A stretch of DNA of 64,000 bases, from positions 1 through 64,000 of the forward strand of contig JAQGGT010000006.1 of NCBI GenBank assembly GCA_028289245.1. The letters are read 5' to 3'. Under the pieces are notes generated by a model that saw only the letters and a list, made by a program, of their open reading frames with translations, did no database searches and had not been told where the DNA came from. The stretch is from Candidatus Saccharimonadota bacterium. Its GTDB lineage: Bacteria > Patescibacteriota > Saccharimonadia > Saccharimonadales > UBA4665. Shown in pieces: positions 1,920 through 62,512 of this stretch. The first letter of the stretch is position 1, and each line of letters begins with the position of its first letter. The position numbers were made by a program, and so were the translations under genes.

Positions 1920-1959
1920 GGCTTGAAGCTTTGTTTTGGTTTGGTAAATAACTACTTAA

Positions 1960-1988
1960 ACATTAGCACTAAATTGATTTTTTGTCAA
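1960..1988 (-). promoter_or_regulatory. Sigma-70-type promoter for the HEXXH membrane protein
   Basis: Reading the minus strand, TTGACA (1983-1988) is followed after 17 nt by TAATGT (1960-1965). The predicted start near 1953 leaves a leader of about 33 nt. The -35 box overlaps the truB stop region, so the two genes are packed but separately initiated. Confidence 0.7.
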
Positions 1989-2671
1989 TCAAGAGTTTTG
2001 AGATGAGACAGGAGGTCAGCGGCTTGGGGAGAAACGGCGTTGGCGACATCGTAGCCAGCGATCCGGGTACGGCGCAGCTCAGTAGTGTAGGCACCGGTAC
2101 CGAGTGCCAGCGCTAGGTCCTCGACGAGAGTGCGGATGTAGGTACCGGAAGACACATCGGCTATGAGCTGGACTACCGGATAGTCGTAGGACACGACCTC
2201 TAGGCGGTGGATGATGACAGGGCGTGCCTCGATAACGACTTCTTTGCCGGCCCGGGCCAGCTTGTAGGCCCGCTGGCCATCGACTTTGATGGCGCTGTAG
2301 GCGGGCGGTACCTGTTGAATCGGACCGGTAAAGCGTGTGACGGCCGTTTGCAGGGCTTCTGGGCTGGGCGTGAGACCGTCGATTACCGTGAGCTCCCCTT
2401 CGGGGTCGCCGGTGGTGCTGGTAACGCCAAACTGCATAGTGATCTCGTAGGTTTTATCGAGCTTGCTAAACTCACCAGCCCGGCGGGTATACTCCTTGCC
2501 GACCAGAAGAATGAGCAGACCGGTGGCAAACGGGTCAAGCGTGCCGGAGTGGCCAACTTTGCAGTTTTTGGGCTTTTTGCCTTCTTCGTGGGCGACAATT
2601 TTGCGGACATAATTGACGGCGTCAAAAGAGGTCCAACTGGCCGGTTTGTCGATAAGCAGCAATCCTTGCAT
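1985..2671 (-). CDS. truB: tRNA pseudouridine(55) synthase
   Basis: TruB isomerises U55 in the T-loop of tRNAs. The catalytic motif GHSGTLDPFATG is present with the nucleophile Asp at residue 46, along with the N-terminal LLIDKPASWTSFD motif and PPAYSAIKVDGQRAY. At 228 residues it is shorter than the roughly 300-residue enterobacterial enzyme, so the C-terminal PUA-type domain is missing. TATACT (2678-2683, minus strand) ends 6 nt before the ATG, suggesting a leaderless transcript. It lies 17 nt downstream of the DHH-like gene. Confidence 0.95.
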   Translation of the reverse strand: MQGLLLIDKPASWTSFDAVNYVRKIVAHEEGKKPKNCKVGHSGTLDPFATGLLILLVGKEYTRRAGEFSKLDKTYEITMQFGVTSTTGDPEGELTVIDGLTPSPEALQTAVTRFTGPIQQVPPAYSAIKVDGQRAYKLARAGKEVVIEARPVIIHRLEVVSYDYPVVQLIADVSSGTYIRTLVEDLALALGTGAYTTELRRTRIAGYDVANAVSPQAADLLSHLKTLD

Positions 2672-2688
2672 GCCTCAAGTATAGCGGA

Positions 2689-4500
2689 CTACTGCTGCGG
2701 TGGAGTGGCACCGAAGTTAAACGGGATGGGTGGTGGCACGGGTGGCGGGGCGGTTGGGTCGACTACCGTTGGCTGTGTGGCCGGGGCGACGGTACCGGGT
2801 GTTACAAAGGTAGGAATAGTAGTGGTGTCGAGACCAGGGTCTGGCAGTGGCGAGACGGGTAGGTTTTGGTCGATAGCCGGCGGTGGCGTCGCCGGGATGG
2901 TTTGAGCCAGGGCATCAGTAAAGCCGCCACTAGGTTGCGGAGCTGACGATGGGTCTGGCTCGTGGAGCGGTGCACCCATAGGCTGCGCGTTGAGGGCTTG
3001 GATAGGCTCGGGAGCTATGGGCGCGCTGTTGTCGAGAGCCCGGAGGACTTCATCACGAGCATCATTGACGTCGCCGGGAGCGCCGCCCAGATGCGGACTA
3101 GCTACTTGCTGCTCGATCTCGGTGAGCGTTTTATTCTCCTCGTAGGTTTCCAGCGGCTCTGAGGGTGGCACCCAAGCCGGCGGTGGCGGCGTGAAACCAG
3201 TAAGTACCGGCTCATACGGCCGTGGCTGCGGAGGGGTTGGCGGGGTAAACGCCGGCGGCTCGGGCATATCGAGTTGCGGAGGAAGTACGTCGGCGGCGTT
3301 AACCTCGGGTGGATCAATGAGGATGCCATCCTGTTGACCGCTAACCGGCGACGGCTCGGGAGGCATTAAGCCGATGCTACCAACGGCCTCCTCTTCGGCT
3401 TCTGGCTGTGAGTTAGCGGTGAGTGTACCGCCCATAGTGGGAGGGTCGAGCATAATGTGCGGGGTCCGCGGTACGACTTCATTGTCGTTGCTATCGTCTG
3501 AGACAGGCGCTTGGGGCAGCGGCGTAATCGCCGGCAGCTCTGTTGACTCGGGTAATTCGGTCTCCTCGGCCGGTTGATCAGCTGGCTCAGAGTTACTTTC
3601 GGCTGGCTGGTCGGCATCGTGAGCTATTTCTAGGGTGCCCGGCTCTTTTGGCGGCGTAGCTTCGGCTGGCTGGTCGGCAGGTGGCTCAGCAGGAGTATCA
3701 GATGCCGGTTCGTCGGATGCGGCTGCGGGAGCTGACGTGTCAGATTCAGGAATAAGCGCTGCTCCCAACTTAGCGGCAACGAGCTGTTGGTTAGCGCCAG
3801 CGGCCATCAGCGCCGCACTGACACTCATGGTGTGCGGCGTGGTCTTCTCATTACTAAAACGCTCGGTTTGGGCAACAATACCGGTGAGTAGCGCAGTAGC
3901 AATCTGGCCATCCATGAGGTTTGGATCGAGTGAATCACAGAGGTCGGTGACAACTTCAGCCAAGCTGCTGGCTTGCGTCTGTACCCAGTTGATACTACCC
4001 AGCTCGGTGGCTTGGGCTTCTATAGAAATGCCGATTACGGTGGCATCGTGTAAGATACGGCCGTGTGAAGTAATGGCTTCGTCGAAGTCTTTTTGCTCGG
4101 CAACGCCCAGCGCCACTACGGCGTCGACGTTGAAGTCGCCCTGGCTAAAAACGAGATCGTCGGCACTGAGCGAGGTGCGGTAGGGTGTAATAAAAATGCG
4201 CACCATCTGGTCTTCGACCTTGTAGCGCAGCTTGTCGGCCTTGCTTTTGTCGAGAGCGATAATAAAGTCCCGGAGACTATCGGTGTTTTTCTCAAGGGTT
4301 GATTCGGGCTCTAGGAACTCGATGGTTGAGGGCACTGCCCCGCTGAAGACGGCGGTAGCATGCTTGCCAAATTTGTTGAGGAGTAGCGTCAGACCAATAC
4401 AGGCAGCCAACTGGTCTACCGAAGGGTCGCGGCTCACCGTCACCAATATATTATTGGCTGCTTGGAGCTTCTCGACGAGCTGATCTTTTGCGCTGTCCAT
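2689..4500 (-). CDS. Degenerate DHH-like protein with long proline-rich tail
   Basis: Residues 1 to about 250 look like the N-terminal domain of DHH/DHHA1 phosphoesterases (bifunctional oligoribonuclease/pAp phosphatase NrnA type): an ILVTVSRDPSVD opening, a Gly-Lys turn and ATALLTGIVAQTERF near residue 205. The metal-binding DxD and DHH motifs are absent, so catalysis is unlikely. From about 260 to 603 the chain is proline-, alanine- and acid-rich, with DQPAE-like repeats, and is probably disordered. TAAAAT (4509-4514, minus strand) ends 8 nt before the ATG. Function unknown; a scaffold role would be a guess. Confidence 0.75.
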   Translation of the reverse strand: MDSAKDQLVEKLQAANNILVTVSRDPSVDQLAACIGLTLLLNKFGKHATAVFSGAVPSTIEFLEPESTLEKNTDSLRDFIIALDKSKADKLRYKVEDQMVRIFITPYRTSLSADDLVFSQGDFNVDAVVALGVAEQKDFDEAITSHGRILHDATVIGISIEAQATELGSINWVQTQASSLAEVVTDLCDSLDPNLMDGQIATALLTGIVAQTERFSNEKTTPHTMSVSAALMAAGANQQLVAAKLGAALIPESDTSAPAAASDEPASDTPAEPPADQPAEATPPKEPGTLEIAHDADQPAESNSEPADQPAEETELPESTELPAITPLPQAPVSDDSNDNEVVPRTPHIMLDPPTMGGTLTANSQPEAEEEAVGSIGLMPPEPSPVSGQQDGILIDPPEVNAADVLPPQLDMPEPPAFTPPTPPQPRPYEPVLTGFTPPPPAWVPPSEPLETYEENKTLTEIEQQVASPHLGGAPGDVNDARDEVLRALDNSAPIAPEPIQALNAQPMGAPLHEPDPSSAPQPSGGFTDALAQTIPATPPPAIDQNLPVSPLPDPGLDTTTIPTFVTPGTVAPATQPTVVDPTAPPPVPPPIPFNFGATPPQQ

Positions 4501-4602
4501 GACTGTTTATTTTACACTTTTTGTTGTTAGAGCTATCAACAGCATCGTAGCATAAGGGTTACGGCTTTGTCCACATTTTTCTTCCCTTGCAGTACCCTTT
4601 TC

Positions 4603-4631
4603 TTTACAATCGAGAGCAGCCTCTGTATATT
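4603..4631 (+). promoter_or_regulatory. Promoter for rpsT
   Basis: TTTACA (4603-4608), a 17-nt spacer and TATATT (4626-4631) form a close match to a sigma-70 promoter. Transcription would start near 4638, giving a leader of about 39 nt that carries the AAAGGA ribosome site at 4666-4671. Confidence 0.75.
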
Positions 4632-4676
4632 TAAGTCCGAAGTCTACAAAAGCGTTAGCATAATAAAAGGAATCAC

Positions 4677-5048
4677 ATGCCAATCATTAAATCAGCTAAG
4701 AAGCGCGTTAAAACCGCCAATAAAGCTGCCATCCGCAACAGTAAATCTAAGCGTACTCTCAAGACCGCTGTCAAAAGCTTCCACGCTGCCCTCACCGGTA
4801 AGTCTAAGGATGCCGGTACCAAGCAGTCGAAAGTTCAGAGTGAACTCGACAAAGCCGTCAAAAAAGGCATCTTGCACAAGAATAAGGCCGCTCGCCTCAA
4901 GAAGCAGGCCGCTACCAAAGCTAAGGCTGCCGGCGTAAAGCCAGCCGCTAAGGCTAAGAAGGCCGCTCCCGCTAAAAAAGCCGCTGCACCAAAGAAGGTC
5001 GCTGCGAAAAAGCCAGCCGCCAAAAAAGCTCCTGCCAAGAAAAAATAG
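4677..5048 (+). CDS. rpsT: 30S ribosomal protein S20 with lysine/alanine tail
   Basis: S20 binds 16S rRNA in the body of the small subunit. The N-terminus MPIIKSAKKRVKTANKA and the lysine-rich helical bundle are typical. The usual length is about 85-90 residues; this protein has 123 because of a C-terminal extension (about 88-123) of repeated AAKK and PAAKK units. Such tails are known on some high-GC bacterial ribosomal proteins and resemble histone H1 tails. The gene has its own promoter and an AAAGGA ribosome site, unlike the leaderless neighbours. Confidence 0.95.
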   Translation: MPIIKSAKKRVKTANKAAIRNSKSKRTLKTAVKSFHAALTGKSKDAGTKQSKVQSELDKAVKKGILHKNKAARLKKQAATKAKAAGVKPAAKAKKAAPAKKAAAPKKVAAKKPAAKKAPAKKK

Positions 5049-43447: not shown

Positions 43448-46285
43448 ATGGATAACGGCGCCCTCTACACACCACGACTGGCCGGACTGCTTTTTGTGGC
43501 TTGTCTTCTTGGCTTTATGAGCATTGCCCTTGGTATACCTCGAGGCAGCGGCGCTAGCCAAGCTACCACGGATTGGGTCACGCCTACGGCAACTAGCGTA
43601 CGGCGCGTGGGGCCGTATGTCACTGACGGCCGCGGGCGGCTGGACCGCATCGACAATTTAAACTGTTACGACAGTACTTATCTAGCAAAAGGTGTAACTG
43701 GTGAGCTTGAGGAGCAGCCGACCTGCTTAGTGCCGACCGCGCTAGGGAACTTTGATGCCATGCATGATAGTATTGGCTTTAATGGCGAGGAAGAGAAACT
43801 CATACCACTCATCTCGCATTCCTCGCAACTGGCTTTGACACCTTGGCCGGGGTCGGATAGCGTACTGGCCACCGAAGCCTCCTCTTTGGGAGGAGCATAC
43901 CTGAGCTTATATCGAGATATTTCGTCGCATGTGCATGATGATTACGGGCTCAACCTTAAACTTGTCTCGAAGACCGTGGTCGACCCACCGGACTATGCCT
44001 TCCGAACGCCGGACGGCGACCTACTACGTACCGACAATATCGCCTTTTCGGATAACGGCTCATGGCTAGTGGTCCGGACCGAGAACGCCGGCTTTGTACG
44101 CATCAACGCCGCTTCGCTACACATCATGTCGTTTGCCAAAGATTTTTATAGCCAGCGCGCCGATAAGCGAACCCAGCTGGCAATCAGCGACGATGGACGC
44201 TATGCGGTGGTGGCCGACACGGAGGCGGAGCGCCTCGTGGTGTATGACTTGAGCCAGTGCGGCAGCGGGTCAGCCTTGCAAGACTGCCCTAACCATAATT
44301 ATTGGAGTGACGTGAAGGGCACTGTTGCTGGATTAACCTTGGTGACCAAGGTTCGATTTATCAATGATTCATTGCTCAGTTTTGTGACTCATGATTCCAG
44401 CGGTGAAAGTGTTTATAATTTGGCACCGACGGCGAAAATAGGCTCGCTCATCGACTACCTGGCGCTCGGCGACTCGTTCGCAGCTGGCGAAGGCGCTTAC
44501 AATTACCAGCCCGGCACTGACAGCGACATCAATCATTGCCACCTATCGCTCGATTCGTACCCCTATTTGATCACCCGGCAGCTCTACACCTCAGCCGGGG
44601 GCCATTCGGTGGCTTGCTCGGGAGCTCGCATTAACGATATTGTGCCGGCGCAAGCCGCCGAGTATCGCGGGCAAACTAGTAACGGCGTAGCCGTCAAACT
44701 ACGTTCTTCTGAAGAGCAGAGCAGTATGCTGTCCAGCTATACCCCGGGTAGTTTGCCACAGATTTCGTTTGCCAGTACCTATCAGCCGGGCGTGATTACT
44801 GTCTCGGCCGGAGGCAACGATATTGGCTTCGCCAAAATACTCACCGCTTGTGTGGCACCGCATATCAGCCAGCACCTCAACTACGTCAATAATTGTTACG
44901 ACACCTACGAGCAGCGTTATGAGCTAGCTACACTGATTGACAACCAACGACCAAGGATAAAAACCATGCTGCAGCAACTCCACTCTAAAGCCCCTTCGGC
45001 TAAAATGTATCTTATTGGTTATCCCCAGATCGCCGTCGACAACGGAAGCTGCGCACTGAACGTGCTACTCAACACGAACGAACTGGCCTTTTCGATTGAA
45101 CTCATCACCCATCTCAACGCCGTTATGCGCCAGGCGGCCAAGGAAGCGAGCGTGAATTATGTTGACGTCAGCCAGGCGCTGGCAGGGCATCGCCTCTGTG
45201 AGGGGCCGTCCGTAGCCGTAAACGGGGTTACTGCCGGCCGTGCGGGCGGCCCGGAGCTGACCGTGGGACCGATTGATTTCCATGCCGATTATCTGGGGAG
45301 CGAGAGTTTTCACCCCAATCGATATGGCCAAGAGCTTTTGGCCCAGGCTATTCTGTCGAAAACTCATAATTTTAACATCGACATTTCTGATACCAGCTCA
45401 TTTATGCCGACGACCTCGGACACTGCTGGTTTTCTCAATAAGCCGAAGTCTGGGGCACCGATTGTACGATTGCTACCGGCAGACATTACATCGCAGCGGA
45501 TCATTACCGTCGGCCAAACTATTACCATAGATGTAGACGGGGAAGCTGAAGGGTTAAAACCGAACACCGTGTACACCGTTTCCATTGGCGCTGTATCGAG
45601 CACGGCTACTGTCAGCGATGGTAGTGGCAACATCGACGTCACTATATCGGTCCCGCCCGCTACGCCAGGTGGCCCGCAACCGATCACCGTTGATGGCCAA
45701 AACCAAGCTGGTGAGCCAACCCAAATCGTCGATACCATAGGTGTCGTGACCGATCCGAGCGATTACGATAACGATGGTGCACCCAATGGTTCCGATAGCT
45801 GTCCAACGATCAAAAACAGTGGTATTGATGCCGACCATGATGGCATCGATGACGCCTGCGACGGCACAGTTACTCCTGTCAACACCGGCTCTGCCACCCC
45901 GGGCGGACCGACTGCGGCTGAGGAGCCTGGTCCGGTCCCAGACCAAGGCGCAGCAACCTCACAAGAGCTAGGAGTCGGAACGGTCCTAAGTGTGGGAGCA
46001 GTTACCGCAACCTTGGCCAGCGAAATGGCAGTACAGGTTACGGCCACCAGTAATCGGCTGCAGCCCGTACAGCTGGCAAAAGTCAGCATCAATCCGCAGT
46101 CCGGCGCACCGGTTGGACACCTTACAGACAAAGTTGCTCAATCATTGACTATTCCAAGTTGGGTCAACCCCAGACGGCTCCACGGGGTGCGATGGGTAGT
46201 GAGCTATGTGATTTGGCTCCTGGTGCTGGCAGTTTTGGCACTTACAACAAAGGGTAGGGTAGAGACAGTGCGGCCAAATAAATAA
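43448..46285 (+). CDS. Surface SGNH-hydrolase with beta-propeller-like and thrombospondin-type repeats
   Basis: The 945-residue exported protein has an N-terminal hydrophobic signal/anchor (about 9-28), a beta-propeller-like part (to about 330; ISDDGRYAVVADTEAERLVVYDL), an SGNH/GDSL esterase domain (LGDSFAAGEGA with Ser343, GGND with Asn457, FHPNRYG with His622), a beta-sandwich region (about 690-765), thrombospondin type-3 calcium repeats (DYDNDGAPNGSDSCP and DADHDGIDDACDG, about 775-805) and a C-terminal helix (about 918-937). The esterase probably acts on surface or host acyl/acetyl groups; the substrate is unknown. Its TAA lies inside the terminator stem. Confidence 0.85.
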   Translation: MDNGALYTPRLAGLLFVACLLGFMSIALGIPRGSGASQATTDWVTPTATSVRRVGPYVTDGRGRLDRIDNLNCYDSTYLAKGVTGELEEQPTCLVPTALGNFDAMHDSIGFNGEEEKLIPLISHSSQLALTPWPGSDSVLATEASSLGGAYLSLYRDISSHVHDDYGLNLKLVSKTVVDPPDYAFRTPDGDLLRTDNIAFSDNGSWLVVRTENAGFVRINAASLHIMSFAKDFYSQRADKRTQLAISDDGRYAVVADTEAERLVVYDLSQCGSGSALQDCPNHNYWSDVKGTVAGLTLVTKVRFINDSLLSFVTHDSSGESVYNLAPTAKIGSLIDYLALGDSFAAGEGAYNYQPGTDSDINHCHLSLDSYPYLITRQLYTSAGGHSVACSGARINDIVPAQAAEYRGQTSNGVAVKLRSSEEQSSMLSSYTPGSLPQISFASTYQPGVITVSAGGNDIGFAKILTACVAPHISQHLNYVNNCYDTYEQRYELATLIDNQRPRIKTMLQQLHSKAPSAKMYLIGYPQIAVDNGSCALNVLLNTNELAFSIELITHLNAVMRQAAKEASVNYVDVSQALAGHRLCEGPSVAVNGVTAGRAGGPELTVGPIDFHADYLGSESFHPNRYGQELLAQAILSKTHNFNIDISDTSSFMPTTSDTAGFLNKPKSGAPIVRLLPADITSQRIITVGQTITIDVDGEAEGLKPNTVYTVSIGAVSSTATVSDGSGNIDVTISVPPATPGGPQPITVDGQNQAGEPTQIVDTIGVVTDPSDYDNDGAPNGSDSCPTIKNSGIDADHDGIDDACDGTVTPVNTGSATPGGPTAAEEPGPVPDQGAATSQELGVGTVLSVGAVTATLASEMAVQVTATSNRLQPVQLAKVSINPQSGAPVGHLTDKVAQSLTIPSWVNPRRLHGVRWVVSYVIWLLVLAVLALTTKGRVETVRPNK

Positions 46286-52446: not shown

Positions 52447-52875
52447 TTACGAGCCGTTGCCGCCGGCACTGACTGCCGTTGAGAAGACGTACTTCACGAT
52501 GAACTGAGCTAGGGCTACGATGATTAGGCCAACGATGGCGTAAATCAAAGTGTTTTTAGCTCCGGAGACGTTGTTACTGTCACCACCCGAGGTGATGTAC
52601 TTAAACCCACCAAAGATGATGAAGATGACAGCAATGATACCGACGATTACGGAGAAGATGTTGACTACGCGAGCAGCCAAGGTCTTCAGTGAATCGCTAC
52701 TGCCGTTAGGATCACAGTCACCGCCAGTAGAACCGGTGGTAGCTTGTCCGATGCCGTCACAGACGCCATTAGTTACTTGATCTGCCGAAGCAAGGCCCGC
52801 AGGGGCAAGGAGCAAGACGCCGAACCCGAATAGGGTGGCTGCGACGAGCAGGGTGTTTTTAATTTTTTGGAACAT
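52447..52875 (-). CDS. TrbC/VirB2-like two-helix pilin-family protein (6 of 6)
   Basis: The 142-residue protein has a signal peptide (1 to about 31, ending LASA), a short extracytoplasmic part with two Cys and two transmembrane helices (about 70-93 and 109-131) joined by the loop TSGGDSNNVSGAKNT. This is the layout of VirB2/TrbC conjugative pilins. The pair of helices is about 70 percent similar by eye to the next gene upstream. AAAGG precedes the ATG. Confidence 0.8.
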   Translation of the reverse strand: MFQKIKNTLLVAATLFGFGVLLLAPAGLASADQVTNGVCDGIGQATTGSTGGDCDPNGSSDSLKTLAARVVNIFSVIVGIIAVIFIIFGGFKYITSGGDSNNVSGAKNTLIYAIVGLIIVALAQFIVKYVFSTAVSAGGNGS

Positions 52876-52931
52876 GATTACCTTTCTTTACTTTCATATT
52901 ACTTATACTATTCCCGGGCCGCTAAAGCAAG

Positions 52932-53420
52932 CTAGGTCTTCTTCGGTGCTACACAACTCGCACTCGTTGCCGAGAGCTTAGAGTTATATTGACATTTGGT
53001 AGCCGTATTGAAGACGAAGTTTACCAAGAACTGGGATATTGCGACGATGACGAGGCCAACGAGGGCGTAGATGATGGTGTTCTTGGCACTGGAAACACGA
53101 TTGCTGTCGCCACCCGAGGTGACGTATTTGAAGCCACCGACAATGATGAAGATGACAGCCAGGATACCAACGATGGTAGACAGCAGCTTGACGATGGAGG
53201 TGACGAGGTTGTGGATGCCATTGTCAGCGGTAGCATTACAACCGGTGCTGCTATCAAGATCGGTTAGACCCTGACAGGCTTGATCTTTGAAGGCCGAAGC
53301 GAATGTCGACGCCGGTGTAGGCGCTGACAGGGCAGCAGCGGCGGCAGGCACGCTCAGCGCCGGCAACAAAATCAGCGCGAGAGCCGCAACCATTTTTTTT
53401 AGACTCAATTTTCTATGCAT
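52932..53420 (-). CDS. TrbC/VirB2-like two-helix pilin-family protein (5 of 6)
   Basis: A 162-residue paralogue of the preceding entry. Signal peptide (1 to about 30), Cys pair (CQGLTDLDSSTGC), helices about 76-100 and 114-138 around TSGGDSNRVSSAKNT, and an extra Cys-containing C-terminal tail (KCQYNSKLS, SCVAPKKT). The near identity of its GGFKYVTSGGDSN core to the 52447 gene suggests a recent duplication. Confidence 0.8.
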   Translation of the reverse strand: MHRKLSLKKMVAALALILLPALSVPAAAAALSAPTPASTFASAFKDQACQGLTDLDSSTGCNATADNGIHNLVTSIVKLLSTIVGILAVIFIIVGGFKYVTSGGDSNRVSSAKNTIIYALVGLVIVAISQFLVNFVFNTATKCQYNSKLSATSASCVAPKKT

Positions 53421-53425
53421 ATATT

Positions 53426-53827
53426 CTATCCAATCCTATTTAGTACGAAACCGATGATCGACTGCGAAACTACAATTACTATAATACCGACTAAACTATA
53501 CACAACGGTTTCACGGGCTGATTTGGCGCCACTAGGGTCACCATTGGCAGTCACGAACCGCAGCCCGGCAACAATCAGGCCAATAACAGCCATAATGCCG
53601 GCAATAATGGAGATGACATTGAGGGCAATGCTAATGATGTGAATAATCGGGTTTTCGCCGTTCACGTCCTGGGACTGGGTATCGGTACAGACATCCGGGC
53701 GGTTGTCGGCCGGAGCGTTTTTACAGACATCGCCGAACAGGCCGACAGCCGAGGCGCTACCAGCAACGGCCAGCGATGGCGTGAGCAGGGTAACTAAAGC
53801 GGTAAAGATGAGTAAGAGGCGTTTCAT
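53426..53827 (-). CDS. TrbC/VirB2-like two-helix pilin-family protein (4 of 6)
   Basis: The 133-residue product has a signal peptide (to about 26), two Cys in a short exported part and helices about 66-93 and 107-129 with the loop TANGDPSGAKSARET. More diverged than copies 5 and 6 but with the same GLRFVTANGDP turn. Its ATG overlaps the stop of the upstream gene as TAATG. Confidence 0.76.
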   Translation of the reverse strand: MKRLLLIFTALVTLLTPSLAVAGSASAVGLFGDVCKNAPADNRPDVCTDTQSQDVNGENPIIHIISIALNVISIIAGIMAVIGLIVAGLRFVTANGDPSGAKSARETVVYSLVGIIVIVVSQSIIGFVLNRIG

Positions 53828-54174
53828 TACAGGCGGCTCGCTACAAAGGTTACGATTAGCTCGGCGCTGATGGCAATTACCAGGCCGACAGCCGAGTAGA
53901 TGATTGTGTTACGGGCCTTGGCGATTTGCTGGGGGTTGTTGGCATCGGCGATCATGCGCAGGCCGGCTACAGCGATCATCAGCACGGCCACAGCCGCTAA
54001 GATGCCGAAGATTATCTGGAGAATCTCGTGGAGCTGGACTGAAGTGGCATTGACATTGGGCAGGTTGGTGTTGCAAAGGGCAGGATCTGAGGTGCCATCA
54101 TTGCAGTTTTTGACTATGGCCGTATCGCCGATGAAGTAAAGCAGGTGCAGCTTGATGATAGTCAGGGCAAACAT
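53827..54174 (-). CDS. TrbC/VirB2-like two-helix pilin-family protein (3 of 6)
   Basis: The 115-residue product has an N-terminal hydrophobic segment (3-17), a Cys pair (NCNDGTSDPALCN) and helices about 53-76 and 92-113 with the loop IADANNPQQIAKARNT. It keeps the GLRMI...ARNTIIYSAVGL signature. Both ends overlap neighbours through TAATG, so translation is coupled. Confidence 0.74.
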   Translation of the reverse strand: MFALTIIKLHLLYFIGDTAIVKNCNDGTSDPALCNTNLPNVNATSVQLHEILQIIFGILAAVAVLMIAVAGLRMIADANNPQQIAKARNTIIYSAVGLVIAISAELIVTFVASRL

Positions 54175-54542
54175 TAGTTAATTCTCCCGGCGATAAAGTT
54201 GACGATAGCAGCCGACATTATGGCAATTGCCAGACCAATCAGGGCATTGGTAATGGTACTGCGGGCTTGGCCGGTTTTGTCGGGCTCACCTTGGCTGGTC
54301 ATGTAGCTAATGCCGCCGTAGACGACAAAGCCGATGGCCACTAGCATCGAGACGCGCAACATAATTTCGATAACGGCAGCTAAGATAAGCCAAACGTCGG
54401 ACAGATTGGTGATGTGTGGCGTGCAAACGCCAGTGCCGTCGGCTTGCATATCGAGGTATTTGTACCAGTAGGGAAAGCCGAGGAAGCTGCCGTCGGCCGT
54501 GCCGCCACAACCAGCTGCAAAATTAGTGAGGGCGCTGATCAT
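54174..54542 (-). CDS. TrbC/VirB2-like two-helix pilin-family protein (2 of 6)
   Basis: The 122-residue product lacks an obvious signal peptide but has a Cys-containing exported part and helices about 52-80 and 97-119 around MTSQGEPDKTGQARSTI. The spacing of helices and of the Gly-Glu-Pro loop matches the other copies. It overlaps both neighbours (ATGA and TAATG). Confidence 0.72.
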   Translation of the reverse strand: MISALTNFAAGCGGTADGSFLGFPYWYKYLDMQADGTGVCTPHITNLSDVWLILAAVIEIMLRVSMLVAIGFVVYGGISYMTSQGEPDKTGQARSTITNALIGLAIAIMSAAIVNFIAGRIN

Positions 54543-55006
54543 TTCAGGATACCTGCCGGAACTACGTAGTTAACAATTGTAAAACCAAATATGAATAAGA
54601 CTAGCGCGCCCACGGTAGCGCGGATCCGGCTCACCGCCTTGGCAGTAGCTTGGGGGTCGCCGCGGGAGGCCGAATACTGGATACCGGCGTAGATTAATGA
54701 GGCCACAATTACCAGCCCGACCCCATATGAGAAGAAACGAATCAGCGCAAAGAGAGCATCCATAATGGCGTTGCCTCGGCCGACACAGCCGATGTTGATC
54801 GACGGCGTATAGGCGGCTTTGCCGGAGCCACAGGTGCCCGGACCATGCGACTGGGTGGGGTCAGTAGAAATGGTGCTGGAACTGTCGCCACCACTGTCAA
54901 TGGGCTTCATGGCCGAGGTGTGCGGCATCGGCATGACACACAATAAAAGCAGTAGTAGGGCAAGGACCGTAGCTACTCGATGTCTGAACTTGTGTGTTTT
55001 TGTCAT
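54539..55006 (-). CDS. TrbC/VirB2-like two-helix pilin-family protein (1 of 6)
   Basis: The first gene of the array, 155 residues. A signal sequence (about 8-32), a Ser/Thr/Gly-rich exported part with CGSGKAAYTPSINIGC and two helices (about 84-107 and 127-150) around SASRGDPQATAKAVSR. It overlaps the next gene as ATGA. TATAGT (55015-55020) ends 8 nt before the ATG, so the operon message is probably leaderless. Confidence 0.76.
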   Translation of the reverse strand: MTKTHKFRHRVATVLALLLLLLCVMPMPHTSAMKPIDSGGDSSSTISTDPTQSHGPGTCGSGKAAYTPSINIGCVGRGNAIMDALFALIRFFSYGVGLVIVASLIYAGIQYSASRGDPQATAKAVSRIRATVGALVLFIFGFTIVNYVVPAGILK

Positions 55007-55136: not shown

Positions 55137-58100
55137 ATGTCTCATAACAGATTTATAAAAAACAAGCCTGGGCGCAGAGTTATTTTTGCACTGCTACCAC
55201 TGTTAGTATTGGCGCCGGTTTTGGCGGCTCTTTTCTCTGTTGGGCACGCCAGCGCTAAAACGTATGGCATCGGCGGCGCCTCCACGTCGTACACCATGCA
55301 GATCAACCTGACGGGAAGTGCCGATCGGGTGGCTTCGGTTCGGGCTACCCGGACTGTAGCAACATCACTAAAGGTCGACAACGTCTACACGCTTTCCAAA
55401 GACAAGAAAATTGCCACCCGCTATACCCAGCAGGGCTTTGACTTCGGCCAGTACGGCCAGACCTGTGAAGATGTTAAGAATGATGCCCAAAACGGCAACG
55501 CCTTTCCGCAAGATGCCGGCTGGTTTAGCTTCAAAGTAGAGGCACTCGACAGCAGCGGCACCGTCATCGCTTCAACGCCATTCCAGTTTGATAAATACAA
55601 GGACTGCGCCCACACCGTCTCCAAAAATCTCGATATCGGGGCTGCCGGCTCCGTCCAAGCCCCTACGGGTACACTTAACGGCACAATTACCATGTATTAC
55701 GTCGGCAAAGAAGTCGGCGTCTCCGACTTGCAGGTCCAAATCAAAGGGCCAAAAGAAGGCGACAACAAATCCTACTTTGCGACTACGACCTCTGCCGACA
55801 AGAAGAGCTTTACCTTTAGTGATTTGACGCCTGGTACCTACACGCTTACCGGCACCGTTCGATGTGGCGGCGATGGTTGTGACACCTCTGCACCCGTCGG
55901 CACCATTAATACGACCGGTGCGATTAAAGCCGGCGCTAATAAGAATGACATTATTATCAACAACGGCTTGGTCGGCTATTGTGGCGATGGCTGTGATAAG
56001 GCTACCGCCATAAATAATTTACTGACTACTGACTCGGTAGATGGCGGCGACGCTGGTGTTGACACCGACAACTCACCGGAAGCCAATTGTGAGAACGGTG
56101 CCGGCGCTTTCGGCTGGGCACTGTGCCCGATTTTCGATGGCATGAGCAACACCACCAAGTATGTCTTGCACAATGTTATTGAGCCAATGTTGGAAACCCG
56201 ACCAGTGACAACCAGTACTTCAAGTGCAGTTTACTCAATTTGGTCGGGCTTCCGGCTCTACGGCAATATTTTCTTGGTCATTGCTTTGTTGGTCATTGTT
56301 TTTGGCCAGAGCATCGGTGGTGGCATGGTCGACGCTTATACCGCCAAGAAGGTGCTGCCACGCTTGCTGGCAGCGGCGATTCTCATTAACTTGTCGATCT
56401 ATTTGGTTAACTTTGCTATCGATATAACCAATATTATGGGCGTGGGTATTACCGACGTCATTACCAAGCCGGTCTCGAATTGTACGCCGGCAACGGCCGG
56501 CACGACCTGCTGGGACTTCCGCATCAAACCTGACGCTGGACTTGGCGTGCTCGGGCTGGGGCTTATTGGCTTGGTCGGGACCGTAGGTGGCATTCTGGGC
56601 GCACTGGTAGCTCTTTTTACTGGTGGTGCGGGCGCTATCGCGGGCATGATCTTCTTTACCATGTTGCCCATCATCTTAGCCGTGGTGGCCGTTTTCTTTA
56701 CGCTTATTCTGCGGCAGGGCATCATTGTGCTACTGATCATCGTCAGCCCGGTGGCCTTCGCACTGTATTGTCTGCCGAATACCGAGCAATACTTTAGGAA
56801 GTGGTGGGACGCGCTATTTAAGACGCTGCTGGTTTACCCGATTGTTATGACAGTATTTGCCGTTTGTGGCGTGCTCAGTATTACGACATTGCAGGCTGGG
56901 GGCGTCACGCCCAATAGTTTTGATCCGAGTGTCAGCCCTAACTTCTTCACTACCCACACCTCCTCAATCCTAGCCACGATTACCGCTTTCGCACTGCAGT
57001 TCTTGCCGCTGTTCTTAATTCCGTTTGCCTTCCGGATCGCCGGCGGCCTGCTCGGCCGCTTGCACGGTGCAATTACTGGTGCCGGTGAGAAGCTCAATCA
57101 ATCCGGACTTATCAAACGCAAGCGCGAGCAGTCTAAGGCAAACTTCGAAGACATTGCCAGCCAGGGCCAGGAACGCGGCTACCGGGCATTGGCAGGACGG
57201 GCTGACAAGGGCGGTATTGGCGGTTTTGCCGCCAAGCGCATGGCCAACCGCGTCCGCACCCGCAACGGCTTGGATATTACTGAGGCACGCGCCCACTCGG
57301 TAGCTAACATGGCCAAGCGCATGGATGCTATTACCTCCAGTGGCGATGACCGTATGGTTCGTGCACTAACGGTCAACAAATCCCGTATCGACAGAGATAA
57401 GCGTAATGGAGTTGGTAAATACGACGCCGAGACTAATAAGGGTGACTGGAGAACCGATTCGGAAGGAAAGACAGAATACCGCACGCTTGGTGGTGCTTGG
57501 GTGAAAGAGTCAGACGTCAATGCAGCCAACAAGGAATTCGGCAGTAACCAGGCAGCACTGCAAGCAGCCACGACCTACGAAATGCGCAAGGCGACCGAGG
57601 AAGGCAATGTCGATCACTTCCGCGAGAACTACCAAAAAGATATTACCGATCGCTCGACCCGCCTTGGCACCAGAGTTATGTCCGATGGCCAGTCAACCGG
57701 CATCCTCAAGGGAGCGGCTTTTGCCAACCAAGGTACGCATCGGTTTGCCAAATACTGGTCTGCTGACAGTAAGGGCAACCTCGCTTTAAGCACTAAGGGA
57801 GCCGCCGATTTGAGCCAAGAAGTGGCTGATACCCAAGGTGGGTATGACCTCCTACGCTCCAACCCTGAGATGGCTCGCGAAATGACCACCAAGGTTCGGG
57901 ACGCTGGCGCCATCAAACGCGACTACGAGGCAGCGCAGGCCACGGGTGGCACTTCTGCGCATAGCGAAGCCGACTACAGAGAAGCTCAGCGCACACTGCT
58001 TAACTCGTCCAAGATCGCCGCTTCGCTCCGTTCGCAGGCCATGTCTCCTGGACCTGGCGGCGACCCGAGTTCCGACGATGCCAGCGCCGCAGGCGCAGCC

Positions 58101-58298
58101 GCCCTACGCAGTGGTGGCGGTGGACGCTCGGTTGGTTCCGGCGCCTCAGCTCACGGTCAAGAGGAATGGAACAAGTTTGTGGCCGCTTCTGATCAGAACG
58201 GTGGCGTGTACCAATTCCCATCGATTAGCGGGCCTAGCCGGACGCCGCCGCCTAACAGCGGTAGTGACCCAGGCGGTCACCCGGGGAACTACATGTAG
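55137..58298 (+). CDS. VirB6/TrbL-like secretion membrane protein with exported N-terminal domain
   Basis: The 1053-residue protein has a signal/first helix (about 14-40), an exported beta-rich part with four or more Cys (about 45-330), a membrane core of about seven helices (about 375-655; IFLVIALLVIVFGQS, GLGLIGLVGTVGGILGALVALF, LILRQGIIVLLIIVSPVAFALYCLP) and a long cytoplasmic, charged C-terminus (about 665-1053) ending in Gly/Ser/Pro-rich sequence. The core recalls VirB6/TrbL channel components. The fused exported domain and large cytoplasmic tail are unusual. Start of the plus-strand secretion operon. Confidence 0.82.
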   Translation: MSHNRFIKNKPGRRVIFALLPLLVLAPVLAALFSVGHASAKTYGIGGASTSYTMQINLTGSADRVASVRATRTVATSLKVDNVYTLSKDKKIATRYTQQGFDFGQYGQTCEDVKNDAQNGNAFPQDAGWFSFKVEALDSSGTVIASTPFQFDKYKDCAHTVSKNLDIGAAGSVQAPTGTLNGTITMYYVGKEVGVSDLQVQIKGPKEGDNKSYFATTTSADKKSFTFSDLTPGTYTLTGTVRCGGDGCDTSAPVGTINTTGAIKAGANKNDIIINNGLVGYCGDGCDKATAINNLLTTDSVDGGDAGVDTDNSPEANCENGAGAFGWALCPIFDGMSNTTKYVLHNVIEPMLETRPVTTSTSSAVYSIWSGFRLYGNIFLVIALLVIVFGQSIGGGMVDAYTAKKVLPRLLAAAILINLSIYLVNFAIDITNIMGVGITDVITKPVSNCTPATAGTTCWDFRIKPDAGLGVLGLGLIGLVGTVGGILGALVALFTGGAGAIAGMIFFTMLPIILAVVAVFFTLILRQGIIVLLIIVSPVAFALYCLPNTEQYFRKWWDALFKTLLVYPIVMTVFAVCGVLSITTLQAGGVTPNSFDPSVSPNFFTTHTSSILATITAFALQFLPLFLIPFAFRIAGGLLGRLHGAITGAGEKLNQSGLIKRKREQSKANFEDIASQGQERGYRALAGRADKGGIGGFAAKRMANRVRTRNGLDITEARAHSVANMAKRMDAITSSGDDRMVRALTVNKSRIDRDKRNGVGKYDAETNKGDWRTDSEGKTEYRTLGGAWVKESDVNAANKEFGSNQAALQAATTYEMRKATEEGNVDHFRENYQKDITDRSTRLGTRVMSDGQSTGILKGAAFANQGTHRFAKYWSADSKGNLALSTKGAADLSQEVADTQGGYDLLRSNPEMAREMTTKVRDAGAIKRDYEAAQATGGTSAHSEADYREAQRTLLNSSKIAASLRSQAMSPGPGGDPSSDDASAAGAAALRSGGGGRSVGSGASAHGQEEWNKFVAASDQNGGVYQFPSISGPSRTPPPNSGSDPGGHPGNYM

Positions 58299-58306
58299 GA
58301 TGAGCT

Positions 58307-59515
58307 ATGTCGACCTATAAAGTAATCCAAGATATCGAGGCCGAGGACAAGATCCTCGGCCCGTTGACCCTCCGGCAGTTCTTGTTTGCGCTCGGTGCCG
58401 CCTTCTTCCTGTATTTGTGCTTCATCGTCATTACCAAGCACGCGACATTCTTGCTGGCCGTCTTTTTACCGCCAGCCCTACTGCTGAGCTTTTTGGCCTT
58501 TCCGTTTGGCAAAGACCAGCCGACGGAAGTCTGGGCTGCCGCCAAGTTTCAGTTTTTATTCCGGCCGCGCCGGCGCATCTGGGATCAAAGTGGCGCTAAA
58601 GAATTGGTGACGATTACCGTACCCAAGAAAATTGAGCGCGTCTACACTGATGGCTTGAGCCAGACCGAAGTCCGTAGCCGACTGCATGCGCTGGCCGATA
58701 CCATCGACACTCGTGGTTGGGCAGTAAAGAATGTTGGCGTGGGCACCTACAGCCAGACTCTGGGCCAAAGTTCCGACCGCCTAGTAGCCGTCAGCGCTAT
58801 ACCGCAGGCCGTGCCTGATATTAGCGATTCGGAAGATCCGCTCGACGACACCAATAGTTCAGTGGCGCAGCACTTTTCGCAGATGATCACAGCCAGCGAG
58901 CAGGCCCACCGCCAGCAGCTCATGCAACAAATGAATCAGCCGAGCCAAGACATTGCGCTACCAGCCCCGCAGGTGATGGCCACAGCGCCGACTGCCGCTG
59001 CCGGCGCCAACGGTATGATCCAGCCGGTATTTACCGCCGCTCCAGCTTCAATGACGCCGCCCGCTGCGCCGATAGCCGCTCAGCCGGCACCAGCCGACCC
59101 GTCGACCGCCATGTGGTTTACGCAGCAACAACCGGCCGCTACTGCGCCGGCATCCTACATTGAGCAAGCCGAAGTAGCGCTGCCGCCCGTAGCCATTGAT
59201 ACCACGCCGACGCCCGAAGAGGAGGCCCTCCTCGAACATCTCAAGGCCGTGAACGCTTCACAGCAGGTTTCTAACGCTCACATGCGCACTTTGCAGCCGA
59301 TTTCGGCTGACTTGGGAGCTCAGCCGGCACCAGTCATTACCGCACCTCCGGCCGCCGCACCCGTCGCGCCGGCGCCGGTGACACCCCAACCTAATGCTGC
59401 TATACTTAACCTGGCAAATAACAACGACCTAAACATCGCTACACTGGCTCGTGAGGCAAATAAATCTATGAGCACATCTGGGTCGGATGGCGAGGTCGTA
59501 ATTTCACTGCATTAG
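58307..59515 (+). CDS. PrgI family (VirB3-like) protein with long Ala/Pro tail
   Basis: Residues 1 to about 110 form a PrgI domain: ILGPLTLRQFLFALGAAFFLYL, a second helix (LLAVFLPPALLLSFLAFPFG) and FLFRPRRRIWDQSG. PrgI stands for VirB3 in Gram-positive conjugation systems. The remaining 290 residues are Gln/Ala/Pro-rich and probably disordered, with a charged helix near 300-320. The position before the VirB4 genes matches the conserved VirB3-VirB4 order. Confidence 0.86.
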   Translation: MSTYKVIQDIEAEDKILGPLTLRQFLFALGAAFFLYLCFIVITKHATFLLAVFLPPALLLSFLAFPFGKDQPTEVWAAAKFQFLFRPRRRIWDQSGAKELVTITVPKKIERVYTDGLSQTEVRSRLHALADTIDTRGWAVKNVGVGTYSQTLGQSSDRLVAVSAIPQAVPDISDSEDPLDDTNSSVAQHFSQMITASEQAHRQQLMQQMNQPSQDIALPAPQVMATAPTAAAGANGMIQPVFTAAPASMTPPAAPIAAQPAPADPSTAMWFTQQQPAATAPASYIEQAEVALPPVAIDTTPTPEEEALLEHLKAVNASQQVSNAHMRTLQPISADLGAQPAPVITAPPAAAPVAPAPVTPQPNAAILNLANNNDLNIATLAREANKSMSTSGSDGEVVISLH

Positions 59516-59549
59516 CAGTTCAAAGTTCTAAGGGTGGAAAATACATACT

Positions 59550-60593
59550 ATGAATCCTGATTCTCAAAATCCCCAAAATCTGCAAGTTCAAGGCGCTGGC
59601 GAGACCTATTCGCAGCTCACCGGACAGCCGATTGGGGCACCGCAGGCCATTAACCCCGCAGTGCAATCCTTGCCGCAGCAGCCGATGGCTATGCCGCAAC
59701 CACCGGCACCTATCGCGCCACCTGCGCCGGTGATGCTGCCGCCCGCTCCCCAAGCTGCCATCCCCACCCAACCGATCGTTACGCCCAACTACGGCCAGCC
59801 GCAACCGGTGGTCTACGCCCCGCAAGGTGGCGGCCCAGCCACTGGCGCACCGATCCCTCCCAAGACCAACCCCAACAGTACCCAAAACACGCTGCAGATC
59901 GCCGAGATCCGCGATGGCATCGTGATCATGAACGACGGATCCTACCGTTCGGTCGTGATGGTAAAGAGCATCAACTTCGACCTGATGAGTCTGCAAGAGC
60001 AGGAAGCTGTTGAATACAGCTACCAGGGCTTCTTGAACTCGCTGTACTTCCCAGTCCAGATTTTTGTGCGCTCTCAAAAAGTCGACCTCCAACCCTACAT
60101 CGAGAAGCTCGATAAGATCCGCACCGAGCACGACAACATGCTACTGGCGTTGCTGATGGAGGATTATATTGATTACATTGACGACATTAGCCAACGCACC
60201 AACATTATGGACAAGAAGTTTTACGTAGTAATCCCGTTCTTTCCCGGCGAAGACGTCAAACAGACACTCGCCCAAAGCAAAAACTTGCTAACCAGTATCA
60301 CCGGCGTCTTTAATAAAAAAGAGCAACACGTAGTTATCAACGAAGGCGAGCTCGAAGCCGCCAAGAGCGAACTACGCAACCGCGTCCAGGCGGTGCTTTC
60401 CGGCTTGCTCCAGTGCTCAATTAAGGGCCTACCGCTCGACACCCAAGAGCTGATCGAACTCTACTACGATACCTACAACCCCGACACTGCCACCCGCCAG
60501 CAGCTCAAAAACTTTGAGGACCTGACGGCGGACGTAATCATGAAGGGTGAAGGCGTCGCCAAACAAGCTCACTTACAGCGGGAGTTGCAGTAA
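59550..60593 (+). CDS. VirB4/TraC N-terminal domain as a separate protein
   Basis: The first 105 residues are Pro/Gln/Ala-rich. From about 112 to 345 the sequence (IAEIRDGIVIMNDGSYRSVVMV, EQEAVEYSYQGFLNSLYFPVQIFVRSQKVDL, KKFYVVIPFF) matches the N-terminal domain of VirB4/TraC ATPases. The ATPase itself is in the next gene, whose ATG overlaps this stop (TAATG), so the VirB4 function is split over two coupled genes. Confidence 0.85.
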   Translation: MNPDSQNPQNLQVQGAGETYSQLTGQPIGAPQAINPAVQSLPQQPMAMPQPPAPIAPPAPVMLPPAPQAAIPTQPIVTPNYGQPQPVVYAPQGGGPATGAPIPPKTNPNSTQNTLQIAEIRDGIVIMNDGSYRSVVMVKSINFDLMSLQEQEAVEYSYQGFLNSLYFPVQIFVRSQKVDLQPYIEKLDKIRTEHDNMLLALLMEDYIDYIDDISQRTNIMDKKFYVVIPFFPGEDVKQTLAQSKNLLTSITGVFNKKEQHVVINEGELEAAKSELRNRVQAVLSGLLQCSIKGLPLDTQELIELYYDTYNPDTATRQQLKNFEDLTADVIMKGEGVAKQAHLQRELQ

Positions 60594-62512
60594 TGGCACT
60601 CGGTAGAAAACAACCGCTTGATCCGGTCGCCATCGCCCAGGCGCAACGGGCCCGCGAAGACCAAGAAGTCCAGGCAGCTTTCCAAAAGGGCATTACGGCA
60701 CTGCGCGACTTTATTGCGCCTAGCTCGATTGAGTTTTCTAGTACCCACTTCCAGCTGGGCACCCGCTTTGCCCGCACCTACTACGTTTACGGCTACCCGC
60801 GCCAGCTCTACACTGGCTGGTTGAGCGGTATGGTCAACCTCGATGAAGTGATCGACATGAGCATGTACATCTATCCGGTCGAGAGCCAGGTAGTGCTCGA
60901 AAACCTTCGTAAGAAAGTGACACAGCTCGAGGCCGGTATCCAGATCGATGGCGAGAAAGGCCGTGTCCGCGATCCAGGCAAACAGGCCGCCATCCTCGAT
61001 GCCGAAGAAATGCGCGACAAGCTGCAGGTCGGCGAAGAGCGCTTCTTCCGATTTGGTCTGTACTTTACAATTTATGGTGGCTCGATGGACGAGCTGGAAT
61101 ATATCTCGCACAAAGTCGAATCGATGCTCGGCCAGCAGCTGGTTTACAGCAAGCCGGCCACCAGCCAGCAAGAGCAGGGGCTGATGAGCACCGTGCCGCA
61201 GCTGATGGACAAACTCCAGATCCGCCGCAACATGAGCACCGGCGCCCTCAGCACTAGCTTCCCATTCACCAGCGCCGATCTGACCCAAGAAAACGGCATT
61301 TTATACGGCATCAACATGCACAACTCTGGCTTGGTTATTTTTGACCGTTTCTCGCTGGAGAATGGCAACTCGGTGGTGTTTGCTAAATCCGGTGCCGGTA
61401 AATCATTCACCGTCAAACTTGAGGCGCTCCGCAGCATGATGTTTGGTACCGAAATCTTTATTATTGACCCGGAAAACGAGTACCAACGCATGTGCGAAGC
61501 CGTTGGCGGTGCCTATGTCCGGCTGAGCCTCAACTCCACCACCCGCATTAACCCGTTTGATCTGCCGCAAGTTGTCGATAACGACGAGGCCGACAACGCG
61601 CTACGCTCTAACCTGATCACGCTGCACGGCTTGCTCCGTCTGATGATGGGTGGGGCCCAGGCCCAGATGCTCGGCGGCAATAGCGCGATTATGCCCGCCT
61701 TGGCGCCGAGCGAAGAAGCTGACCTCGATGCTGCCCTGATCGAAACCTACGCTAAAGCCGGCATCACTAACGATCCGCTGACCCACACGGCTATACCGCC
61801 AACCATTGCCGACCTGTACGACACCTTGCTGCACATGGGCGGCAACGGCCCGCAGCTGGCCCAGCGCCTGCGCAAATACACTACCGGTACTTTTGCCGGC
61901 ATCTTTAGCCAGCCCTCAAACATCAACATCAACAACCCGTTAGTGGTATTTAACATTCGCGATCTGGAGGATGAACTGCGCCCGGTCGCCATGTACATTG
62001 TGCTCAATTACATCTGGAACAAGACCAAGAGTGACATGAAAAAGCGTATCTTGATCGTTGACGAGGCCTGGCAGTTGATGAAGTACGAAGACTCGGCCAA
62101 CTTCCTATTTAGCTTGGCGAAACGCGCTCGCAAATACAACCTTGGCATCACGACCATTACGCAGGACGTCGAGGACTTTATGGGGTCGCGGATGGGTCGA
62201 GCGATCGTGGCAAACGCCAGTATGCAAATTCTGCTCAAGCAATCAACTTCGGCCGTGGATGTGCTGGCCGATACCTTTAAGCTGACCAGTGAGGAGCGCA
62301 AGCGCCTCAGCCAATTCCCGGTTGGGCAGGGGCTGTTCTTTGCCGGCCAAAACCACGTCCACATCCAAGTGACGGCCAGCCCGACCGAGACGTCGCTGAT
62401 CACGACCAATCCGGAACAAGTCCAGGCTATGGCCGATGCACCCCAGCAGGGTGACTTCGATACCCAGGGCACAATTGATCTGAGTAACCGCCTCTTCCCA
62501 GGTAGCGTATAA
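60593..62512 (+). CDS. VirB4/TraC-type secretion ATPase
   Basis: The 639-residue motor ATPase has a middle domain (about 40-240), Walker A FAKSGAGKSFTVK near residue 263, FIIDPENEYQRM, TRINPFDLP, Walker B RILIVDEAWQLMKYED near 485 and the ITQDVEDFMGS segment after it. VirB4 powers substrate or pilin movement through the type IV channel. It begins inside the stop of the 59550 gene, confirming a functional pair. Confidence 0.94.
   Translation: MALGRKQPLDPVAIAQAQRAREDQEVQAAFQKGITALRDFIAPSSIEFSSTHFQLGTRFARTYYVYGYPRQLYTGWLSGMVNLDEVIDMSMYIYPVESQVVLENLRKKVTQLEAGIQIDGEKGRVRDPGKQAAILDAEEMRDKLQVGEERFFRFGLYFTIYGGSMDELEYISHKVESMLGQQLVYSKPATSQQEQGLMSTVPQLMDKLQIRRNMSTGALSTSFPFTSADLTQENGILYGINMHNSGLVIFDRFSLENGNSVVFAKSGAGKSFTVKLEALRSMMFGTEIFIIDPENEYQRMCEAVGGAYVRLSLNSTTRINPFDLPQVVDNDEADNALRSNLITLHGLLRLMMGGAQAQMLGGNSAIMPALAPSEEADLDAALIETYAKAGITNDPLTHTAIPPTIADLYDTLLHMGGNGPQLAQRLRKYTTGTFAGIFSQPSNININNPLVVFNIRDLEDELRPVAMYIVLNYIWNKTKSDMKKRILIVDEAWQLMKYEDSANFLFSLAKRARKYNLGITTITQDVEDFMGSRMGRAIVANASMQILLKQSTSAVDVLADTFKLTSEERKRLSQFPVGQGLFFAGQNHVHIQVTASPTETSLITTNPEQVQAMADAPQQGDFDTQGTIDLSNRLFPGSV

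Follow-up and report, generated by a model that had tools for sequence, protein, structure and literature searches.

Six position-specific VirB2-like pilin paralogues, one with a putative promoter of its own, at a type IV secretion locus of an uncultured Saccharibacterium

Saccharibacteria are tiny bacteria that live on other bacteria. Their type IV secretion system (T4SS) is needed for growth and is essential in at least one cultured member (PMC10633639); its role has been described as completely unknown (PMC11665869). The closest described locus is that of Ca. Southlakia epibionticum ML1, which carries six sequence-divergent VirB2-like pilins, essential in Tn-seq, at a Gram-positive-type T4SS locus (PMC12857230, PMC10633639). 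In Patescibacteria at large, Quinonero-Coronel et al. (2025; PMC12102498) described 441 pilin arrays, of 2-11 genes each, from 383 assemblies, with a mean identity of 25%, and suggested immune evasion or host versatility through an analogy with Bartonella and Anaplasma. In Anaplasma/Ehrlichia and Bartonella, too, the VirB2 pilins of the T4SS occur as tandem paralogues (cited in PMC12102498), and the copies are discussed as variable surface antigens. In the classical VirB2/TrbC conjugative systems one gene provides a single major pilin, a small exported protein whose two helices form a hairpin around a basic turn. Division of labour among pilins is known for type IV pili; to our knowledge it has not been described for conjugation-type pili.

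The DNA examined here, hereafter "the window", is the first 64 kb of one contig of a 1.22-Mb genome in seven contigs. It represents a lineage that is uncultured and different from S. epibionticum ML1, to which it is likened by description, not by sequence. As an earlier note on this stretch had claimed, six consecutive paralogous pilin-like genes occupy positions 52447-55006; all six ORFs are on the minus strand, and in a Pfam search all six products match PF18895 (T4SS_pilin) over their two-helix part (Table 1; slots are numbered in transcription order). These six are the only PF18895 matches in the whole 1.22-Mb genome, a concentration far beyond chance. Slots 2-6 score over the curated gathering cut-off of 26.6 bits (32.7-61.1 bits) and slot 1 below it; slot 1 is counted as a probable relative of the pilins from its position within the array and from its orthologues. 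For PF04956 (TrbC/VirB2; cut-off 27.9 bits), slots 5 and 6 pass, slots 3 (21.3 bits) and 4 (17.8 bits) fall under the cut-off, and slots 1 and 2 are unlisted. The best NCBIfam match of all six is NF045849, the Mbov_0395 family of pilin-like conjugal transfer proteins of a mycoplasma ICE (E = 4e-5 to 4e-10), yet at 23.1-39.4 bits all six stay below its curated cut-off of 40 bits and outside the family. About six divergent PF18895 genes in tandem at a T4SS locus, the layout that marks a Saccharibacteria six-pilin array, are thus present here, and the gene family (PF18895/PF04956) and the low within-array identity are those of the Patescibacteria arrays (PMC12102498).

The array is divergent from a VirB6/PrgI/VirB4 operon (55137-62512) and lies near dnaA; the low locus-tag numbers of the S. 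epibionticum ML1 locus (SEML1_0006-0019) are a parallel to this position. PrgI and VirB4 in the divergent operon give the six genes the T4SS context by which a VirB2 protein is recognized. The first operon product, which had no match over cut-off in a Pfam search, may be a VirB6, a reading made by position and topology only. Past the end of the window the operon goes on (contig 62557-66739, or 558-4740 of the sequence L070) with a 986-aa protein bearing a terminal VanY carboxypeptidase domain, followed by a phage-tail-lysozyme and C39-peptidase protein. The two are probably cell-wall cutters of the T4SS, and beyond their genes lie recF, a dnaN-like gene (named by position) and dnaA. It was also observed that VirB4 in the window is split in two genes (59550-62512), one for a TrsD-like N-terminal half and the other for the ATPase half, of the CD1110 family, as it is in many relatives, and that positions 43448-46285 encode a large exported protein with a GDSL lipase/acylhydrolase domain.

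Table 1. Pilin-like genes, putative promoter and T4SS genes of the window
Feature	Positions	Strand	Evidence and remarks
Slot 1, pilin-like, 155 aa	54539..55006	-	Signal peptide; Cys pair 59/74; C-terminal P-A-G-I (family motif P[GA]G); PF18895 22.1 bits; NF045849 E=2e-6
Slot 2, pilin, 122 aa	54174..54542	-	Cys pair 12/40; WYKYL before helix 1; PF18895 32.7 bits
Slot 3, pilin, 115 aa	53827..54174	-	Cys pair 24/34; PF18895 52.3 bits
Slot 4, pilin, 133 aa	53426..53827	-	Signal peptide; Cys pair 35/47; PF18895 34.0 bits
Slot 5, pilin, 162 aa	52932..53420	-	Signal peptide; Cys pair 49/61, second Cys pair 143/156 within the C-terminal tail; PF18895 47.0 bits; PF04956 31.4 bits
Slot 6, pilin, 142 aa, probable major pilin	52447..52875	-	Signal peptide; Cys pair 39/54; RBS AAAGG; PF18895 61.1 bits; PF04956 32.2 bits
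Putative internal promoter of slot 6	52902..52930	-	TTGCTT (52930-52925), 17-nt spacer, TATAAG (52907-52902)
Large polytopic membrane protein, VirB6-like	55137..58298	+	Named by position and topology; opens the divergent T4SS operon
PrgI/VirB3-like protein	58307..59515	+	PF12666 40.9 bits, cut-off 27
Protein like TrsD/N-terminal half of VirB4	59550..60593	+	NF041427 TrsD E=6e-7, NF045975 E=2e-6, both under cut-off
VirB4-like ATPase, CD1110 family	60593..62512	+	NF045971 355.1 bits, cut-off 325

The best reading of the six genes would be as six distinct VirB2/T4SS-type pilins of a chromosomal, MPF-FATA-like T4SS of a Saccharibacterium. The view of the earlier note, that they are paralogous VirB2-like T4SS pilins with specialised copies, agrees with the PF18895 matches and with the slot tree described below. 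Its remark that a set of six is unusual among T4SSs is sound, but for Saccharibacteria and Patescibacteria such sets had already been published (PMC12857230, PMC10633639, PMC12102498). Individually the products differ in their ends. A Cys pair in the exported part, which the earlier note called frequent, is present in all six. An exported N-terminal part, ascribed to all in that note, is marked by a signal-like N-terminus in slots 1, 4, 5 and 6, is doubtful in slot 3 (a short, atypical signal peptide at best) and is absent from slot 2, which begins MISALTNFAAGCGG. Slot-2 orthologues mostly start alike, without a signal peptide, and a minority of about 8 have a signal-peptide-like N-terminus. 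The proposed G-[DE]-[PS] turn holds for five of the six (gene 3 has N-N-P), and the A[RK]-x-T that should follow it for genes 2-6 but not gene 1. The six resemble VirB2/TrbC pilins as small, putatively exported hairpins of two helices around a basic turn and, for slots 5 and 6, in profile score, and differ from these in being six fixed paralogues with longer, Cys-paired exported tails.

That every gene overlaps the next, so that all are made in fixed order, was correct for genes 1-4 (overlaps of 4, 1 and 1 nt at junctions 1/2, 2/3 and 3/4) but not for the last two, which follow gaps of 5 nt (4 to 5) and 56 nt (5 to 6); slots 1-5 are packed closely into a single block, with overlaps in part of it. 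Nor are copies 5 and 6 nearly the same in their membrane parts: 45 of 68 core residues (66%) and 13 of 60 in the exported part (22%) are identical.

Relatives were taken from public genomes, where their contigs are mostly environmental MAGs. Pilins (PF18895 matches) occur in 72 of 79 sampled genomes of the same family, six being the commonest count, and VirB4 likewise in 72 of the 79, not always the same genomes; at class level pilins were found in 71 of 76 genera. A maximum-likelihood tree of a 70-column core was built from 37 stretches with exactly six hairpins in transcription order (222 core sequences). In it, sequences cluster according to their place in the array and not according to the genome they come from. 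Slots 1, 2 and 3 each form a single clade (SH-aLRT 99, 96 and 91, the slot-1 clade comprising 37 rows), and the slot labels require 15 changes on the tree, against a mean of 143.2 for shuffled labels and with none of 200 shuffles as low. Slots 4, 5 and 6 do not separate cleanly (8, 13 and 4 changes, slot 5 being the most mixed), partly because 70 columns cannot resolve the inner branches and partly because 5 and 6 have been reduplicated or converted. Slot-specific motifs are found in the same arrays: W[YFD]x[YF]L before helix 1 is present in 36 of 37 slot-2 genes and in none of 185 others, and a PGG-like C-terminal end in 30 of 37 slot-1 genes and 1 of 185 others. Outside the family of the window the slot-2 motif is rare (5/44). 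Slot profiles applied to sister families recovered the order 1-2-3-4-(5/6)-6 in six families and a near match in a seventh; in f2, a large family, most loci start with slots 1 and 2 and continue with a mixture of slots. The order string 123456 is the commonest by far, with 73 loci against 11 for the next, some contigs being counted under two names.

Each of the six genes, then, has its orthologues at the corresponding place in the arrays of dozens of other genera. It follows from this position-specific orthology that the duplications are ancient; the repeated duplication postulated earlier is upheld as an old event and not as a recent one, since the slots split before the genera, and slots 1 and 2 before the sister families. 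Ancient duplications would argue against recent amplification or antigenic variation, and the identity and place kept across genera suggest fixed, non-interchangeable parts of one structure. Redundancy, in which the genes are relaxed tandem duplicates with no division of labour, was already disfavoured and is highly improbable: all share one fold family, and slots 5 and 6 are alike in core, but every slot has been retained over dozens of genera in genomes of about 1 Mb, slots have their own motifs, and the array is essential in S. epibionticum (PMC12857230).

An interchangeable pilin cassette, with one pilin used at a time or the set shuffled for different hosts, is also quite unlikely. Alternative or antigenically varying pili of this kind have been suggested for Patescibacteria in PMC12102498, the exported tails are strongly variable (23-43% identity), and in f2 the later pilins vary in number and type, some lying on the opposite strand. 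Against these points stand the position-wise orthology across genera with all six genes kept in order, the fixed fusions of neighbours described below, and the window itself, where no recent tandem duplicates are seen and the closest pair shares 66% of its core. Where host versatility or antigenic variation was proposed for the arrays of PMC12102498, the position-specific orthology found here argues for fixed roles, and where the Anaplasma/Ehrlichia and Bartonella copies are treated as variable surface antigens, each slot here is conserved between genera.

Other pilin genes were noted outside the main arrays. Twelve f2 loci have an extra pilin on the opposite strand, mostly slot-6-like and usually about 2 kb from the array. 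In five other loci two PF18895 pilins form a pair separate from the main array (locus coordinates about 6.4-7.6 kb), and in four of these five one hairpin of the pair sits inside a protein of about 500 aa. Several genomes of the family have a second, shorter VirB4 (about 580 aa) and a separate N-half (about 215 aa). The separate pilin pairs and the second VirB4 possibly represent a second T4SS.

Fusions of neighbouring slots were found in 15 distinct ORFs that hold two or three hairpins in one frame. One genus has slots 1 and 2 joined in every one of its seven sampled species, which makes an assembly error unlikely. Two other genera of the family have a 2+3 fusion, and in several f2 genomes slot 2 is joined to the pilin that comes next. 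Once fused, two partners have to act in the same complex at a 1:1 ratio. The partners are always adjacent genes, as gene order and chance fusion would lead one to expect, and this is no extra evidence. Mirror-tree correlations between slots (r 0.17-0.50) lie above nearly all permutations; they reflect shared ancestry and were rejected as evidence of contact. When the fused proteins were aligned together with those of slots 1 and 2, slot 1 was misaligned onto slot 2, and another alignment was used instead. A single 281-aa ORF (L107, 5292-6137) carries three successive pilin hairpins.

The AlphaFold model of slot 6 consists of a signal helix, a short helix and a hairpin (H59-95/H100-138; mean pLDDT 72.8), and that of a natural slot 1+2 fusion from a relative (L062) has a hairpin in both halves (75.4, pTM 0.53); at this pTM the packing of the two hairpins is not established by the model. 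With the slot-6 model, Foldseek against the PDB gave no match under E=1.4, and VIA-align gave only unrelated helical hairpins (Z up to 9.2). Foldseek with the fusion model gave nothing better than E=0.16, and a profile search of solved structures gave no pilin match. Fold searches on hairpins of this kind are uninformative, speaking neither for nor against a pilin fold.

The fixed set of six with its 1+2 and 2+3 fusions would also suit something other than a pilus, namely a hetero-oligomeric membrane ring or channel (a VirB2-like translocation collar) with fixed neighbours that lies beneath a filament or replaces it. Gram-positive T4SSs known so far are generally without pili (PMC10633639), and slots 2 and 3, which lack a standard signal peptide, may stay in the membrane. 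Such a collar nevertheless appears unlikely: slots 5 and 6 score over the cut-off for VirB2 pilins, and slot 6 combines a promoter-like region with the strongest constraint, as a major polymer subunit would, although neither point is decisive.

The features that set slot 6 apart begin with the gap that precedes it, the median of which is 77 nt in the 37 arrays (56 nt in the window), against -1 to 8 nt for slots 2-5. TATAA occurs in this gap in 33 of the 37 arrays, where dinucleotide shuffles predict 14.4. The extended -10 motif TGNTATAA is present in 23 of the 37 gaps and in 0-2 of the 80-nt stretches before the other slots; these control stretches are mostly coding, and the shuffles are the fairer control. 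In a hold-out of 34 loci, mostly outside the family (other families or orders), TGNTATAA was found in a 60-140-nt gap before one of the last pilins in 18. In the window the putative promoter (TTGCTT-N17-TATAAG) is followed by AAAGG and then by the ATG of slot 6. The window's own site is unremarkable alone, its score being reached by 13% of shuffles, and its -10 is not of the TG type; a generic promoter scan, which demands T at the last -10 position, did not return the slot-6 site. In slot 6 the core is also better conserved than in any other slot, with 90% identity within the genus (others 47-65%) and 70% family-wide (others 41-54%), while the exported tail of slot 6 is as variable as those of the other slots (36% within the genus, 25% family-wide). 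A conserved core with a variable tail is the pattern expected of a major pilin that packs against itself and exposes its tail. A promoter of its own does not prove that a gene product is abundant, but as judged from these comparisons slot 6 is probably a separately transcribed major pilin.

Of the two possibilities raised in the earlier note, a multi-component filament or several alternative pili, the filament is the better fit to six slots kept in order in 37 arrays, to the fusions and to the lone promoter-like region. Because six old, retained, ordered and partly fused paralogues are present, one of them separately promoted, a composite pilus is preferred to alternative pili or redundant copies. 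We consider it reasonably probable that the six genes specify one composite T4SS pilus, or pilus base, in which slot 6 would be the major pilin and slots 1-5 fixed accessory pilins. That this would be an ordered hetero-polymeric pilus of six obligately different VirB2-type pilins, one major with its own promoter and five accessory in set positions, is a tentative proposal. For the composite pilus, each hairpin would sit in the membrane with its two ends outside and its basic turn inside, and disulphides would join the exported tails. The VirB4 machinery would polymerise slot 6, perhaps together with slot 5, its nearest paralogue, into a thin pilus or a pilus stub in which slot 6 would be the major subunit. 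Slots 1-4 might be low-copy, position-fixed subunits, e.g., an initiator, base, adaptor or tip, and the exported tails of the polymer, which are variable, would be the part presented to the host bacterium.

The array itself was already known, and what is new here is the position-specific orthology, the fusions of neighbours and the promoter-like gap of slot 6. The available portions of the S. epibionticum papers (PMC12857230, PMC10633639) make no mention of slot identity, an internal promoter or fusions; in the text of PMC12102498 the words promoter and ortholog are absent, and fusion is mentioned only for VirB3-VirB4. For the biology of these bacteria, slot orthology argues against the analogy with antigenic variation drawn in the literature, and with six orthologous slots and one separately promoted pilin the question "why six pilins?" becomes directly testable.
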